A DNA stretch of 64,000 bases, taken from NCBI GenBank assembly GCA_020629315.1, contig JAHDDO010000011.1, positions 23,574-87,573 of the forward strand, in the 5' to 3' direction. Below, in pieces: positions 39,173 through 50,433 of the stretch (its first letter is position 1; each line of letters opens with the position of its first letter). The notes beneath the pieces were generated by a model. It saw only the letters and a list, made by a program, of their open reading frames with translations. It was not told where the DNA came from and ran no database searches. This DNA is from Saprospiraceae bacterium. Its GTDB lineage: Bacteria; Bacteroidota; Bacteroidia; Chitinophagales; Saprospiraceae. The position numbers and the translations under genes are program-made.

Positions 39173-40051
39173 ATGCAGTACCTTAGCAAGCTACCAATAC
39201 CTAAATTTTTGATAAAAAAATATTCCATAGATATCTTCAAACCCAACTGGCCTCAATGGAAAATAAAGTTGGTCGATTTTTTCTTAACACGATTACCCGT
39301 TTTGCATGTGGGTACGATCAATAAAGTGATCGCAAATAGTGAACACCTTTCAAACAGAGAATTCATTTGGTCTTGCTTAAAAGATATGGGCATAAAAATC
39401 CATACAATTGGCACCGAAGCTATCCCTAAGGAAGGGCCCCTAACCATCGCAGCAAATCACCCTGGAGGTGCAGATGTAATGGCATTAATATCCACGATAG
39501 GTATGGTTAGAGAGGACCCGTCTATTTTGGCAAACTCCTTAGTCTGTATAGAGCCTGTAAAAGACATTGTAATACCGGTGGATAAGTTAGCATCCAAAAA
39601 TGCTGTAGATTTTAACCAAATAGACAAAGCATACGAAAATGGAAGGGCTGTTGTATTCTTTGCAGCCGGAATGAACTCTAGACCAGATGAAAGTGGAAAT
39701 CTCGTGGATAGAAGATGGAGAGCCACGTATTTACAATACGCCAAAAAGTACAAAACACCTGTTATTTTAATGCACATTGATAAAGGCAATAGCCCTTTGT
39801 TTTTTAAAGTCGCCAATATCAGAGCAAAGTATAAAAGATTAGCAAAAGTGCCATTAGAAAACATTTTCCAATTAAGAGAATTCGTTAAAGCCAAAGGCGA
39901 TATTAATGTTTTAGTTTCTGAATGTATTTCATATAATGAAGTAGACCGTCTATTACTTAATGAAACTAAAAAAGACTACAGAGAACTTGCTGATAAAATG
40001 CGTGACTTTGTGTATACTATGAGTCCTAATGAACGTGAATTTAACGCTTGA
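39173..40051 (+). CDS. Lysophospholipid-type acyltransferase (PlsC family), probably aminolipid O-acyltransferase
   Basis: This 292-residue protein has the PlsC/LPLAT core: AANHPGGADVMAL, where His96 and Asp101 form the catalytic HX4D, followed by a longer domain ending near residue 280. It lacks obvious membrane helices but is likely membrane-associated. The next gene, 2 nt downstream, encodes an OlsB/GlsB-like N-acyltransferase. Together they match the two activities that make acyloxyacyl amino-acid lipids (glycine or ornithine lipids): the GNAT enzyme N-acylates the amino acid and the LPLAT enzyme esterifies the hydroxyl. The order LPLAT-then-GNAT is that of the fused OlsF enzyme of Flavobacterium, here split into two genes. 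Confidence 0.82.
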   Translation: MQYLSKLPIPKFLIKKYSIDIFKPNWPQWKIKLVDFFLTRLPVLHVGTINKVIANSEHLSNREFIWSCLKDMGIKIHTIGTEAIPKEGPLTIAANHPGGADVMALISTIGMVREDPSILANSLVCIEPVKDIVIPVDKLASKNAVDFNQIDKAYENGRAVVFFAAGMNSRPDESGNLVDRRWRATYLQYAKKYKTPVILMHIDKGNSPLFFKVANIRAKYKRLAKVPLENIFQLREFVKAKGDINVLVSECISYNEVDRLLLNETKKDYRELADKMRDFVYTMSPNEREFNA

Positions 40052-40053
40052 AA

Positions 40054-41076
40054 ATGAAAGAGGTTCTAGTAGCAAAACCATTGGAAAATATTAACCTTAT
40101 TGATTTTTTTGATGACAAAAAGTCAATCTACAAGCCGGTCCCTACCTTTCCATTCCTTACAGAAGAAGATGTACTTTCAGCGCTACATGAGCTTTGTGAT
40201 TTTGAAGAAATAAAAAAGGAAATTAAAGAGGTACAGCGTAAAGGTCACAACAAAATTCCGAATACAGAATACGTAATCTGCTTAACAGATTGGTTTAGCT
40301 ATCCAAACCTTATTGCAGCCTTGACAATTATTCGAGAATGGGCATTTAGAAATGAAGGCGGTGGTGTAGGCAAAAATGATATGGATGCTTTTGACACGTT
40401 GCCGATTACCCAACAGTTAATGATCTTAAACCCCCACGCTGAAAGCTTACTTGATGTGATCATTGGAGGGTATAGGTATCAAATACACTCAGGCGACACC
40501 TACGAAGAAGGACCTATGGGTGATCATTTCACCTTTAATCCGAACATCAAGAAAGAAACATGGTCTGAGTTGGGTCGTTCGTTTATTAATCCATTTTACC
40601 AGAAAAGAGAAACTCGTCAATCTTTTGATTATGTCTTGCATGGCTTAGGCTTCATTTATGCAAATAACCAACACATCAAAGGATACTTTGGTAAAGTGAC
40701 ACTCTATAATATCTACGAACAAAGAGAAGCACACCGCTTCTTCACGGGGACTGCACGCCAATACTGGAAAGCGTCTGATCTCATGAATGTTTATGATAAC
40801 GAAAGAGTAGAAGAAGGGGAACTCACGGATGACCAAAAGTCGATGTTAGATAGAGATATTTTTAAAGGGATGTTCTACATCTTACGAAAAGAATATCAGA
40901 TAAACCTAGTCCCAATTATGGCCGTATATAATCGAATGACGGCACTAGAAAATATGTTCTATTTCGGTGCGTTCAGGCATCATGCGTTTGGCAATACGAT
41001 AGAAGTCGGGATGGGCATAGCTATCGAAAATATAAGACCGATTATTATGGAAAAATTTGTGGATCCTTACCGCTAA
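40054..41076 (+). CDS. GNAT N-acyltransferase of OlsB/GlsB type (aminolipid synthesis)
   Basis: The 340 residues resemble the Acetyltransf_5 family. Key segments are LLDVIIGGYRYQIHSGDTYEEG, HFTFNPNIKKETWSELGRSF, with the family's ELGRSF motif, and INPFYQKR, then GYFGKVTLYNIYEQREAHRF. In Bacteroides the comparable glsB product N-acylates glycine with a 3-hydroxy fatty acid; in Rhizobium OlsB does so with ornithine. The amino acid used here cannot be told from sequence. The track begins at TTG 40048, which overlaps the previous stop; the ATG at 40054 fits better. It starts 2 nt after the acyltransferase stop, so the two are translationally coupled. Confidence 0.82.
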   Translation: MKEVLVAKPLENINLIDFFDDKKSIYKPVPTFPFLTEEDVLSALHELCDFEEIKKEIKEVQRKGHNKIPNTEYVICLTDWFSYPNLIAALTIIREWAFRNEGGGVGKNDMDAFDTLPITQQLMILNPHAESLLDVIIGGYRYQIHSGDTYEEGPMGDHFTFNPNIKKETWSELGRSFINPFYQKRETRQSFDYVLHGLGFIYANNQHIKGYFGKVTLYNIYEQREAHRFFTGTARQYWKASDLMNVYDNERVEEGELTDDQKSMLDRDIFKGMFYILRKEYQINLVPIMAVYNRMTALENMFYFGAFRHHAFGNTIEVGMGIAIENIRPIIMEKFVDPYR

Positions 41077-46664: not shown

Positions 46665-49331
46665 ATGGAAAAAATAAAAGTGGGTATCTTTTTTGGAGGT
46701 CCTTCTCGAGAGCGAGAGATTTCCTTTGCTGGTGGGCGTACCGTCTATGATAATATAGACAAGAGCCTTTTTGATCCTGTGCCCATATTTATGGATAGCC
46801 TAGGTCGATTGATCCTTTTAGATTGGTCATACATTTATAAAGGAAGTATTCGTGATTTCTATCCACCAGCCTCTGAAGTCAAAGCTTCTGAATATAATTT
46901 TCAAGTATATATTGAAAATGTCCATGATTTAGATGACGAAAAACACAAGGCTTGTATTGAATCAGTAGGTACCGAGATTTCGTTTTCGTCCCTTTCTTCC
47001 ATAATAGATATTGCTTTTTTGGCACTACATGGAGTAAAAGGGGAAGATGGAAGTATACAAGGTCTTTTAGAGTTTTTAGACATACCCTATACTGGATCCG
47101 GAATACTCCCTTCTGCCATTGGCATGAATAAATCAATCCAAAAATCTTGGATGCAGGCTTTTGGCTATGCTTCCAAACCAAGTTTCACTATTCATCGAGC
47201 TACTACCATTGATGATGAGCTCATCGAACAAGTTACAGAAAAGCTTGGATTTCCATTAGTAGTCAGACCCGCTAATCAAGGCTCTTCCATAGGTGTCAGC
47301 ATATTAATGGATACTGATCCTGGAGCTTTGAAAGAAGCCATTAAAAAAGCATTTTTCAAAAGAAATATACATAGGGACCATTGGATAACATTGGACCGCC
47401 AACAAAAAATACAACTAGTACGAGAATGGACTGATATCCGAGAAGGAATCGGTTTACCTGTAAAGATTAATGATAAATGGATACATCACCCAGATGCCCT
47501 TTTTGAATACTTCGAGAAAGACGGATGGCATCAAATGGTTGCAGAAGCCAAGGATGGCGAATCCGAAGTTATTGTTGAGGGATTTATTTCAGGTCGAGAA
47601 TTCTCATGTATCGTTATCAAAGACGAAAACAATGGTATAATGGCTTTACCTCCTACCGAAATAGTTAAAGGGCAGGAGTTGTATGACTATAGGAGCAAGT
47701 ACATGCCTGGGCTGTCTCGGAAAAAAACGCCCATAGATCTCGAAGATGAAGCCATTAGAAAGATACAAAAGGAGTGTGAACGCTTATTCAAAACATTTGG
47801 CTTTCATACATATGCACGAATTGATGGGTTTTATGGAACCGATGGTGAGATATATCTTAATGATCCAAATACTACATCGGGAATGCTTCCTTCGTCATTC
47901 TTTTTCCATCAGGCAGCAGAAGTAGGTTGGAATCCATCACAATTTCTAAGCTATATCATTCGAAATAGTGTGGCTGAACGACAACGTCATTCTAATGATT
48001 CTACTAAATATGAATCACTAATAACACGATTAGATAAAGGCTTAAAAGATATCCAGACCGATGCTAATACCCGTCAAAAGGTGGGGATTATATTAGGTGG
48101 GTATTCCTTCGAAAGGCATATCTCAGTAGAAAGCGGACGGAACATATATGAGAAGCTTGCCTCTTCCACAAAATATGATGCTATTCCGATTTTCCTAATG
48201 GGAGACGACGAAGGATATGAATTATATCAAATTCCTATTAATCTTCTATTGAAAGATAATGCAGATGATATTAAAGAAAACATCTTGCATTTTAGTAAGC
48301 ATACTATCACTGAATCTATCAAAGAAAAAGGGGCCGATCTGTTTGCAAAATATCGATCAAACTTTACGGTTCTAGAGCCTCAAAAACTTGACAAAGATAA
48401 TTTGACTGATGTTTTCGACCTTGCATTTATAGCTTTACATGGCCGACCTGGTGAAGATGGTACCATCCAACAGTTGCTATTGCAACAAGGCATTCCATTT
48501 AATGGAAGCATGCCTGAGTCTGCAGCCATAACAATACATAAATACAATACGCTACAAACCTTGAAAAAACATGGTTTTACTGTAACTGATCAAGCCATAT
48601 ACACTAAACAAGGATTTCTAGATGACGAACAAGAGTTAGTTTCGAATATAGAACAAAGGTTTAGCTATCCTTTTATTTTGAAACCCTTAGATGACGGTTG
48701 CTCATCTGCCGTAAAAGTTATAAAAGATAAGAAGCAGTTGCATGCCTTTTTACATACCATGTTTAGAAGTGCACTCGAAATACGTCCTGAACATGCAGAA
48801 ACGCTATCCTTAAAAAGGAATGAAGAATTCCCTAGAAAGAACGAGGTATTAGCTGAAGCATTGATAGGGCCCAATGGCGCCGATGCGTTTTTAGAAATAA
48901 CGGGTGGCATGATTACTTCTTACTCAGATGGAGAAGTTAGATACGAGGTTTTTCATCCTTCCGAAGCACTGGCAGGAAATGAAATTCTAAGTTTGGAAGA
49001 AAAATTCTTGGCTGGAGAAGGTCAAAATATTACGCCAGCCAGATTTGCGACTAGCACACTTACATATGAAGACGTGGCAAATAAGGTTAAAGCGGACCTT
49101 CAAAAAGCAGCAGAAATACTTCAAGTCGATGGGTATTGCCGTATAGACGCCTTTGTGCGAATATATAATGAAGGTCGTGTTGAAACCGTTATTATTGAAA
49201 TCAATTCACTACCTGGTATGACACCAGCTACTGCAATTTTTCACCAATCATCGTTGAATAACTATAAACCTTTTAATTTTATTGATAAGATACTGGAGTA
49301 CGGTGTACAACGGCATCAAAAACAAAGCTAA
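46665..49331 (+). CDS. ddl: Double-length D-alanine-D-alanine ligase (two fused Ddl units)
   Basis: D-Ala-D-Ala ligases are about 310-370 aa; this one is 888 and holds two complete units. Unit 1 (about 1-460) has GGPSREREIS with a Glu at 16, LHGVKGEDGSIQG, ANQGSSIGVS, the omega-loop ELYDYRSKY, ARIDGFYG and DPNTTSGM. Unit 2 (about 468-888) has GGYSFERHIS, LHGRPGEDGTIQQ, LKPLDDGCSSAV, CRIDAFVR and EINSLPGM. In unit 1 the ATP-binding Lys before the GSS loop is Arg (VVRPANQ), and the EIN metal motif is DPN. Unit 2 keeps both but lacks the YDYxxKY omega-loop Tyr (it reads LSLEEKF). The PASTA gene follows at 5 nt. Confidence 0.92.
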   Translation: MEKIKVGIFFGGPSREREISFAGGRTVYDNIDKSLFDPVPIFMDSLGRLILLDWSYIYKGSIRDFYPPASEVKASEYNFQVYIENVHDLDDEKHKACIESVGTEISFSSLSSIIDIAFLALHGVKGEDGSIQGLLEFLDIPYTGSGILPSAIGMNKSIQKSWMQAFGYASKPSFTIHRATTIDDELIEQVTEKLGFPLVVRPANQGSSIGVSILMDTDPGALKEAIKKAFFKRNIHRDHWITLDRQQKIQLVREWTDIREGIGLPVKINDKWIHHPDALFEYFEKDGWHQMVAEAKDGESEVIVEGFISGREFSCIVIKDENNGIMALPPTEIVKGQELYDYRSKYMPGLSRKKTPIDLEDEAIRKIQKECERLFKTFGFHTYARIDGFYGTDGEIYLNDPNTTSGMLPSSFFFHQAAEVGWNPSQFLSYIIRNSVAERQRHSNDSTKYESLITRLDKGLKDIQTDANTRQKVGIILGGYSFERHISVESGRNIYEKLASSTKYDAIPIFLMGDDEGYELYQIPINLLLKDNADDIKENILHFSKHTITESIKEKGADLFAKYRSNFTVLEPQKLDKDNLTDVFDLAFIALHGRPGEDGTIQQLLLQQGIPFNGSMPESAAITIHKYNTLQTLKKHGFTVTDQAIYTKQGFLDDEQELVSNIEQRFSYPFILKPLDDGCSSAVKVIKDKKQLHAFLHTMFRSALEIRPEHAETLSLKRNEEFPRKNEVLAEALIGPNGADAFLEITGGMITSYSDGEVRYEVFHPSEALAGNEILSLEEKFLAGEGQNITPARFATSTLTYEDVANKVKADLQKAAEILQVDGYCRIDAFVRIYNEGRVETVIIEINSLPGMTPATAIFHQSSLNNYKPFNFIDKILEYGVQRHQKQS

Positions 49332-49336
49332 ATACA

Positions 49337-50125
49337 TTGAGTTTTAAACGATTTTTAATTAACCTCCTCATAATTGGGCTCATCCTGATTCTCATCTTTG
49401 TGGGTTTGAATATTTGGTTACGTGTATATACTAATCACGGACAACAATTAGAATTGCCTGACTATGTAGGTCAACATATCGATGAGGCGAGCGAAGATGC
49501 TCGTAAACGATCTTTCGAAATAATAGTCAGCGACTCCATCCATATTGTCGGCAAACCAGGTGGTATTATTACTAGGCAGAACCCAGCGAAACAAGCCAAA
49601 GTGAAAGAAAACAGAAAGGTGTATGTCTCTGTCACAAAATATAGTGCTGATCAAATCCAGGTAGGTAGTTTAGGCGTCTTATATGGACAGGATTATGAAA
49701 GTAAAAAAAGGGAATTGGCCTATTTAGAAATAAATAGTACCATAAAAGGACGTAAATACGATCCAGGAGAACCAGATCATATTTTAGAAGTGTGGTACAA
49801 GGGAGAGGCTGTAATTACCAAGAATGTAGAAAAAAGGAACGTATCTATAGATAAAGGTGATACGCTAGAGTTTGTAATCAGTCAAAAAGGAGGCGGAGAA
49901 GCTGCAGTTCCAGATCTTCGTTGCCAACCTTTCGCTGCCGCACAATTTATTCTAGAATCTAGCCAACTTAAGTTAGGTGAAGTTAAAGAGCTAGGGCAGA
50001 TTACAGACATTAACGCAGCTACAATCGTTGCCCAATCTCCCAACCCAGAAACGGTGCGTTCTGTAGCTATGGGTCGTGAGTTTACTGTAACTATTCAACA
50101 AGAAAAACCAAAAGATTGTCCATAA
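49337..50125 (+). CDS. PASTA-domain membrane protein, TTG start
   Basis: This 262-residue protein has one N-terminal transmembrane helix (about 8-29) and an extracytoplasmic part with three PASTA-like repeats (about 38-102, 103-175 and 190-256), such as LELPDYVGQHIDEASEDAR and VPDLRCQPFAAAQFIL. PASTA domains bind muropeptides or beta-lactams in other bacteria. No kinase domain is attached. The start must be TTG 49337, since no ATG occurs before the helix, and MSFKRF agrees with Bacteroidota relatives. It lies 5 nt after the double ddl and overlaps the rhodanese start by one base, forming a three-gene operon. Confidence 0.88.
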   Translation: MSFKRFLINLLIIGLILILIFVGLNIWLRVYTNHGQQLELPDYVGQHIDEASEDARKRSFEIIVSDSIHIVGKPGGIITRQNPAKQAKVKENRKVYVSVTKYSADQIQVGSLGVLYGQDYESKKRELAYLEINSTIKGRKYDPGEPDHILEVWYKGEAVITKNVEKRNVSIDKGDTLEFVISQKGGGEAAVPDLRCQPFAAAQFILESSQLKLGEVKELGQITDINAATIVAQSPNPETVRSVAMGREFTVTIQQEKPKDCP

Positions 50126-50433
50126 TGAAGGATATTGATGTAATTGAATTAAAAGAGAAACTGGATAGAGGTGATGACTTTTTATTTCTAGATGTTAGGG
50201 AGCCTCATGAATTTCAAGAGTTTAATCTAAACGCACAATTGGTTCCACTAGGTGCTCTAGCAGTGCGATTACACGAATTTGATGAATTTAAGGACAAAGA
50301 AATCGTTGTACACTGTCGATCAGGTGCCCGAAGTGCTTCGGCGAAAGCATTTATGACTAAGGCAGGCTTCGAAAAAGTACGCAATTTGTTAGGTGGTGTA
50401 CTTAGTTGGAGGGAGCATTTCCCCAATTCTTAA
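50125..50433 (+). CDS. Single-domain rhodanese-like protein
   Basis: This 102-residue cytoplasmic protein is one rhodanese domain: DFLFLDVREPHEFQEFNLN, then the active-site loop HCRSGARSASA with the persulfide-forming Cys, and NLLGGVLSWREHFP at the end. Such proteins carry sulfane sulfur, but the acceptor is unknown. The ATG overlaps the PASTA gene's stop (TAATG), so the two are coupled. The track's earlier TTG start is not needed. In many Bacteroidota the ddl-PASTA pair is followed by rluD; here a rhodanese takes that place. Confidence 0.9.
   Translation: MKDIDVIELKEKLDRGDDFLFLDVREPHEFQEFNLNAQLVPLGALAVRLHEFDEFKDKEIVVHCRSGARSASAKAFMTKAGFEKVRNLLGGVLSWREHFPNS

Follow-up and report, generated by a model that had tools for sequence, protein, structure and literature searches.

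One gene in the window, i.e., the whole 64,000-nucleotide stretch of Saprospiraceae DNA analysed here, encodes two D-Ala-D-Ala ligase (Ddl) units within a single protein. Such tandem Ddls are real and widespread, and they are a variant of a known enzyme, not a new kind of enzyme. As best explanation, to which we give somewhat better than even chances, we propose that unit 1 makes D-Ala-D-Ala and that unit 2 is its ATP/D-Ala-binding partner, both resulting from an ancient Ddl duplication.

Ddl, which is targeted by D-cycloserine, is essential and is taught as a homodimer of single units. No description of a tandem or fused Ddl, or of Ddl in connection with Saprospiraceae, was found in the literature searched, outside of which most subscription journals lie. 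If much of Bacteroidia relies only on the two-unit form, an essential enzyme departs from the textbook catalytic rules on Glu270 and Tyr216, and the dimer of Ddl becomes open to study as a fixed heteromer.

Gene and protein architecture

The features discussed in the following are listed with their window positions, strand and basis.

46665..49331, + strand: tandem Ddl gene (ORF, 888 aa; Pfam/NCBIfam Ddl matches; AlphaFold2)
46665..48050, + strand: unit 1, residues 1-462 including a linker helix, proposed D-Ala-D-Ala ligase (alignment; kept alone in the shorter f88 frames described below)
47355..47555, + strand: unit 1 insertion of ~65 residues, about residues 231-297 (alignments)
47862..47870, + strand: unit 1 Asp400-Pro-Asn402, equivalent to Glu270-x-Asn272 of E. 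coli DdlB (EcDdlB), with a fixed Glu to Asp metal-ligand change (alignment)
48051..49328, + strand: unit 2, residues 463-888, proposed ATP/D-Ala-binding partner (alignments, predicted fold, structural matches)
48972..49046, + strand: unit 2 omega-loop region, LSLEEKFLAGEGQNITPARF, strongly conserved in tandems and of low model confidence
49337..50125, + strand: PASTA gene (PF03793) with one transmembrane-like segment, next after the tandem Ddl (domain match)
50116..50433, + strand: rhodanese-like gene (neighbourhood comparison)

The tandem gene runs from ATG to TAA in one frame of 888 codons and has zero internal stops. Both units of the encoded protein match Dala_Dala_lig_N as well as Dala_Dala_lig_C; over the whole protein, PF01820 matches two stretches (162 bits) and PF07478 four (185 bits). 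The uninterrupted frame and the doubled Pfam matches thus bear out what an earlier, sequence-only reading by a model had claimed, i.e., two full Ddl units in one frame. For TIGR01205 (cut-off 245.65), the whole tandem protein reaches 366 bits, whilst single units in the relatives searched score below the cut-off.

The AlphaFold2 model of the whole tandem, based on 44 homologues, shows a pLDDT of 87.8 and a pTM of 0.87. Its low-confidence parts are the two omega loops only, and its best PDB matches are Ddl structures. Unit 2 modelled alone reaches a pLDDT of 88.5. The structural matches listed for this model are all Ddl or Van ligases, where the D-Ala-D-Lac ligase 1ehi (LmDdl2) is on top with a negligible margin over ordinary Ddl. 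The ~65-residue insertion of unit 1 is present in the sampled tandems and in f88 and absent from canonical Ddl in our alignments.

In 12/82 sampled proteins, among them three decayed tandems, the tandem Ddl continues in frame into a membrane-PASTA protein, a fusion which suggests membrane tethering in some lineages. Respective Ddl-Ddl-TM-PASTA chains are L017, L025, L026, L030-L032, L036, L041, L043, L049, L052 and L053. The order Ddl-PASTA-rhodanese-MscS-like is also observed with a single Ddl in a relative (L173, genome G054). Since the gene order is common to this single-Ddl genome, the tandem occupies a ddl locus that is also used by single Ddls. Elsewhere in the window (39173..41076), an acyltransferase-like ORF adjoins a GNAT-type ORF (PF13444 match), a pair which we take to resemble ornithine-lipid synthesis genes.

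Active-site residues of the two units

We mapped 15 positions of EcDdlB (E. coli K-12 ddlB, taken from the genome record) onto both units. The respective residues are, in the same order:

EcDdlB: Glu15, His63, Lys97, Lys144, Ser150, Ser151, Glu180, Glu187, Lys215, Tyr216, Arg255, Asp257, Glu270, Asn272, Ser281
Unit 1: Glu16, His122, Lys156, Arg201, Ser207, Ser208, Glu305, Glu312, Lys345, Tyr346, Arg385, Asp387, Asp400, Asn402, Ser411
Unit 2: Glu483, His592, Lys626, Lys673, Cys679, Ser680, Glu731, Glu744, Lys780, Phe781, Arg826, Asp828, Glu845, Asn847, Thr856

Single Ddls (n=24) show the signature EHKKSSEEKYRDENS, with one sequence carrying Gln at 180. Among the intact tandems, 73/74 read EHK[K/R]SSEEKYRDDNS in unit 1 and EHKKCSEEKFRDENT in unit 2, while the remaining one has Thr at 151 of unit 1 and no other difference. 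That is, unit 1 of the 74 intact tandems departs from canonical Ddl by Glu270 to Asp and by having either Lys (40) or Arg (34) at the Lys144 position, with all other mapped positions canonical apart from that one Thr. Unit 2 departs by Ser150 to Cys, Tyr216 to Phe and Ser281 to Thr, again with canonical residues elsewhere; its ATP, Mg and first-D-Ala residues are invariant. Each unit carries fixed conservative substitutions, which concern a predicted metal ligand in unit 1 and the predicted second-substrate side in unit 2.

These alignments also bear on residue assignments made in the sequence-only reading. For unit 1, it had noted Arg in place of the ATP-contact Lys and DPN in place of EIN. 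Both replacements are found (Arg201 for Lys144, Asp400 for Glu270), but Asn402 is kept, such that DPN is not a lost EIN, and Arg does not define a loss, since Lys and Arg are interchangeable at this position. The omega loop of unit 1 (YDYRSKY, with Lys345 and Tyr346) is retained as described, and so are Lys673 and Glu845-Ile-Asn847 of unit 2, where Phe781 takes the place of the loop Tyr216. The GRE segment had wrongly been considered absent from unit 2: Glu744 is the equivalent of EcDdlB Glu187 and follows an insertion of roughly 7 residues (MAFFT and hhalign), and every unit 2 sampled retains this glutamate. Two further fixed changes of unit 2, Ser150 to Cys679 and Ser281 to Thr856, had been overlooked. 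Thus, the idea of complementary active-site losses holds with respect to different sites being altered in the two units; the alterations themselves are conservative and invariant instead of losses.

With regard to what is known of these positions, the conservation of Glu270 among normal Ddls amounts to 98-100% (PMC6899670). An ATP-grasp kinase with working Asp-x-Asn metal ligands is Asp1, where both metals are bound (PMC9765450). The choice of the second substrate is set by the Ser150 and Tyr216 positions (PMC7691350, PMC5996685).

Distribution, ancestry and decay

Related genomes were searched for double-length Ddl proteins, as had been suggested together with the initial claim, and a full-length tandem on one contig is indeed found in 45/101 of them; three more hold contig-edge or split pieces. 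Two relatives are named Saprospiraceae MAGs. In a draw from Bacteroidia (n=395), we count about 170 tandems, i.e., 173 matches that are too strong for a single Ddl and are not f88, some fragments included. A scan of the best-quality genomes of the phylum, which is no frequency measure, provided long matches in 6/297, all from the same class or closer.

No other canonical Ddl match is found in 42/45 tandem genomes, a status that rests on draft genomes. As a negative control, the identical search was applied to the non-tandem relatives and recovers single Ddls there with only four exceptions. HMM searches, which covered 16 genomes, are consistent with this result: canonical Ddl was not found by HMM search in the tandem genomes G001, G002, G060, G157, G285, G376, G452 and G466, and it exceeds the TIGR01205 cut-off in G003, G020, G022 and G057. 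In the source genome, the remaining PF07478 matches fall outside the tandem gene and are read as other ATP-grasp proteins, based on lengths and coverage and not on one-by-one annotation. The tandem is the predicted sole Ddl in most genomes that carry it. Genome G060, one of the 42, holds a second, divergent tandem copy beside its intact one (L054; G060:C311:5158-6732), which is cut at the contig end and whose unit 2 appears to retain the Cys/Phe/Thr pattern.

MurF is present in the source genome as well as in the tested tandem, single-Ddl and f88 genomes, so a D-Ala-D-Ala source is needed. Two MurF-like proteins are observed in the source genome (G000:C27:42620-43858, 814-aa frame; G000:C3:192381-193607, 439-aa frame), and such a pair is found in most tested tandem and single-Ddl relatives. 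A link between the tandem Ddl and the second MurF (MurF-Alr) was rejected, since both kinds of genomes have MurF-Alr.

Unit 1 (95/92), unit 2 (100/100) and f88 (100/100) each form one clade in a maximum-likelihood tree that was built from 78 units. f88 and unit 1 join (100/99) and are together sister to unit 2 (97/92), where the join of unit 1 and unit 2 connects two long branches that were flagged by the tree program. One ancient tandem duplication would explain this tree.

Purifying selection is strong on both units and about equal: the closest tandem pairs show dN/dS values well under 1 for either half, and pairwise identities average 54.6% (unit 1) and 55.2% (unit 2). In genomes with the tandem as sole Ddl, unit 2 is no decaying relic.

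Partial loss is observed in four genomes of 99-100% completeness (G339, G387, G448, G483), whose sole Ddl is a frame of 558-590 aa, referred to as f88. It comprises unit 1 with Asp270, the insertion and Lys144, followed by ~100 degenerate residues that resemble the start of unit 2. Its unit 1 signature is EHKKSSEEKYRDDNS; differences to unit 1 of the tandems are a restored Pro275 and also Lys144. Given that the sole Ddl of f88 genomes is unit 1, we infer that a unit 1 with Asp270 can serve without the active site of unit 2.

Genomes G003, G020 and G022 carry a canonical Ddl in addition to a tandem, and the active sites of these tandems are scrambled. The fractions of conserved columns kept in unit 1/unit 2 of tandems beside a canonical Ddl are 0.84/0.86, 0.70/0.68 and 0.46/0.50. 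This joint decay suggests that D-Ala-D-Ala supply is the function of both units, since an independently needed product of unit 2 should have let unit 2 outlive unit 1. Lineages without unit 2 or with both units decayed therewith constitute a natural test of each half's role. G057, which also has a canonical Ddl, encodes an 803-aa protein (L055; G057:C132:219546-220538) that joins a single degenerate, unit-1-like Ddl domain to a PASTA part and is possibly a Ddl turned structural.

Roles of the two units and comparison with known systems

In the mechanism we favor, an in-frame tandem duplication of the Ddl gene in Bacteroidia would have given rise to an enzyme of two covalently joined units, which took the place of the single Ddl. 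Unit 1 would provide D-Ala-D-Ala for MurF via an Asp-x-Asn metal site instead of Glu-x-Asn. Unit 2 would keep the full ATP/Mg and first-D-Ala site with an altered second-substrate site (Cys150/Phe216/Thr281) and would mainly serve unit 1 as a built-in partner that binds nucleotide and D-Ala. The two units would thus form a heteromeric counterpart to the Ddl dimer, which is recurrent in crystal structures (PMC6899670). Among the options named from the sequence alone, this is closest to the one with a catalytic and a regulatory unit, with unit 1 as the probable catalyst in view of f88. Against this explanation, none of the ATP and metal ligands is missing from unit 2, which is beyond the needs of a purely structural partner, and unit 1 of f88 is not identical to that of the tandems.

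The same invariant ATP, Mg and first-D-Ala residues speak for both units being catalytic, where unit 1 would make D-Ala-D-Ala and unit 2 D-Ala-D-X, e.g., a depsipeptide such as D-Ala-D-Lac. Phe at 216 marks the depsipeptide Ddl of lactic acid bacteria (PMC5996685), EcDdlB with Ser150/Tyr216 changes shows weak D-Ala-D-Lac activity (PMC7691350), and LmDdl2 (1ehi) tops the structural matches of unit 2 by a small margin. We nevertheless consider dual catalysis unlikely: f88 has lost unit 2, and beside a canonical Ddl both units decay in parallel, so no independently needed unit 2 product is evident. Furthermore, MurF and MurF-Alr sets show no consistent difference between tandem and single-Ddl genomes, and the changes Ser281 to Thr and Ser150 to Cys differ from the LmDdl2 residues. 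That the enzyme is a bifunctional ligase whose unit 2 makes an unrecognised D-Ala-D-X dipeptide or depsipeptide is an improbable case; if true, many Bacteroidia would have a cell-wall precursor of unknown terminus.

We are similarly doubtful about an obligate pair, in which neither half is active alone and catalysis at one site depends on conformational or chemical support by the other. The invariant, non-overlapping changes, the co-decay and the equal constraint of both units would fit such a pair, which had also been suggested from the sequence alone. f88, with unit 1 and ~100 residues from the start of unit 2, argues against it, at least in these genomes, though exactly those residues could be the helping part.

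Given the conservation of Glu270 (PMC6899670), Asp270 could also be crippling and unit 2 the real ligase, with unit 1 being regulatory. Unit 2 does keep the canonical Glu845, Asn847 and Lys673, and unit 1 is without the canonical Glu270. However, the second-substrate residues Ser150, Tyr216 and Ser281 are canonical in unit 1 and changed in unit 2, and f88 dispenses with unit 2 and has unit 1 as sole Ddl, such that we regard this assignment as very improbable. A frameshift, an assembly error or a chance joining of genes, the first two named beforehand as what could refute the finding, is ruled out for practical purposes: nothing was found in its favor, and dozens of independent genomes each encode the full-length protein in one open frame, with identities of 40-67%.

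Both units of the tandem, i.e., the putative ligase unit 1 and its putative partner unit 2, have the full fold of canonical Ddl and most of its catalytic residues (TIGR01205, PF01820+PF07478; EcDdlB, Salmonella DdlA 3i12), and some single-Ddl relatives show the Ddl-PASTA-rhodanese order of the tandem and have MurF. In contrast to canonical Ddl, the tandem has two units per chain, Glu270 to Asp and the ~65-residue insertion in unit 1, and Ser150 to Cys, Tyr216 to Phe and Ser281 to Thr in unit 2. With F-type Ddl, i.e., D-Ala-D-Lac ligases such as LmDdl2 (1ehi), unit 2 shares Phe at the Tyr216 position (Phe781; Phe in intact unit 2s) and a non-Ser residue at 150. It differs by Cys instead of Ala at 150, Thr at 281 and its location as second domain of a tandem. 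Shared ancestry with F-type Ddl is not indicated, as unit 2 groups with unit 1 in a tree without F-type sequences from lactic acid bacteria.

The large subunit of carbamoyl phosphate synthetase also has duplicated homologous ATP-grasp halves in one chain, both catalysing steps of one reaction. It belongs to a different family. With respect to a need for both halves in one reaction, the two halves of the tandem are conserved and decay jointly, but its unit 2 can be lost (f88). Like unit 1, fission yeast Asp1 and PPIP5K2 have Asp at the Glu270 position, followed by Asn, and bind both metals (PMC9765450); unlike Ddl, they are inositol phosphate kinases and not ligases. Finally, the chlamydial MurC-Ddl fusion (NF011171) joins Ddl to another protein in one chain as the tandem does, but its partner is MurC and it has a single Ddl unit.
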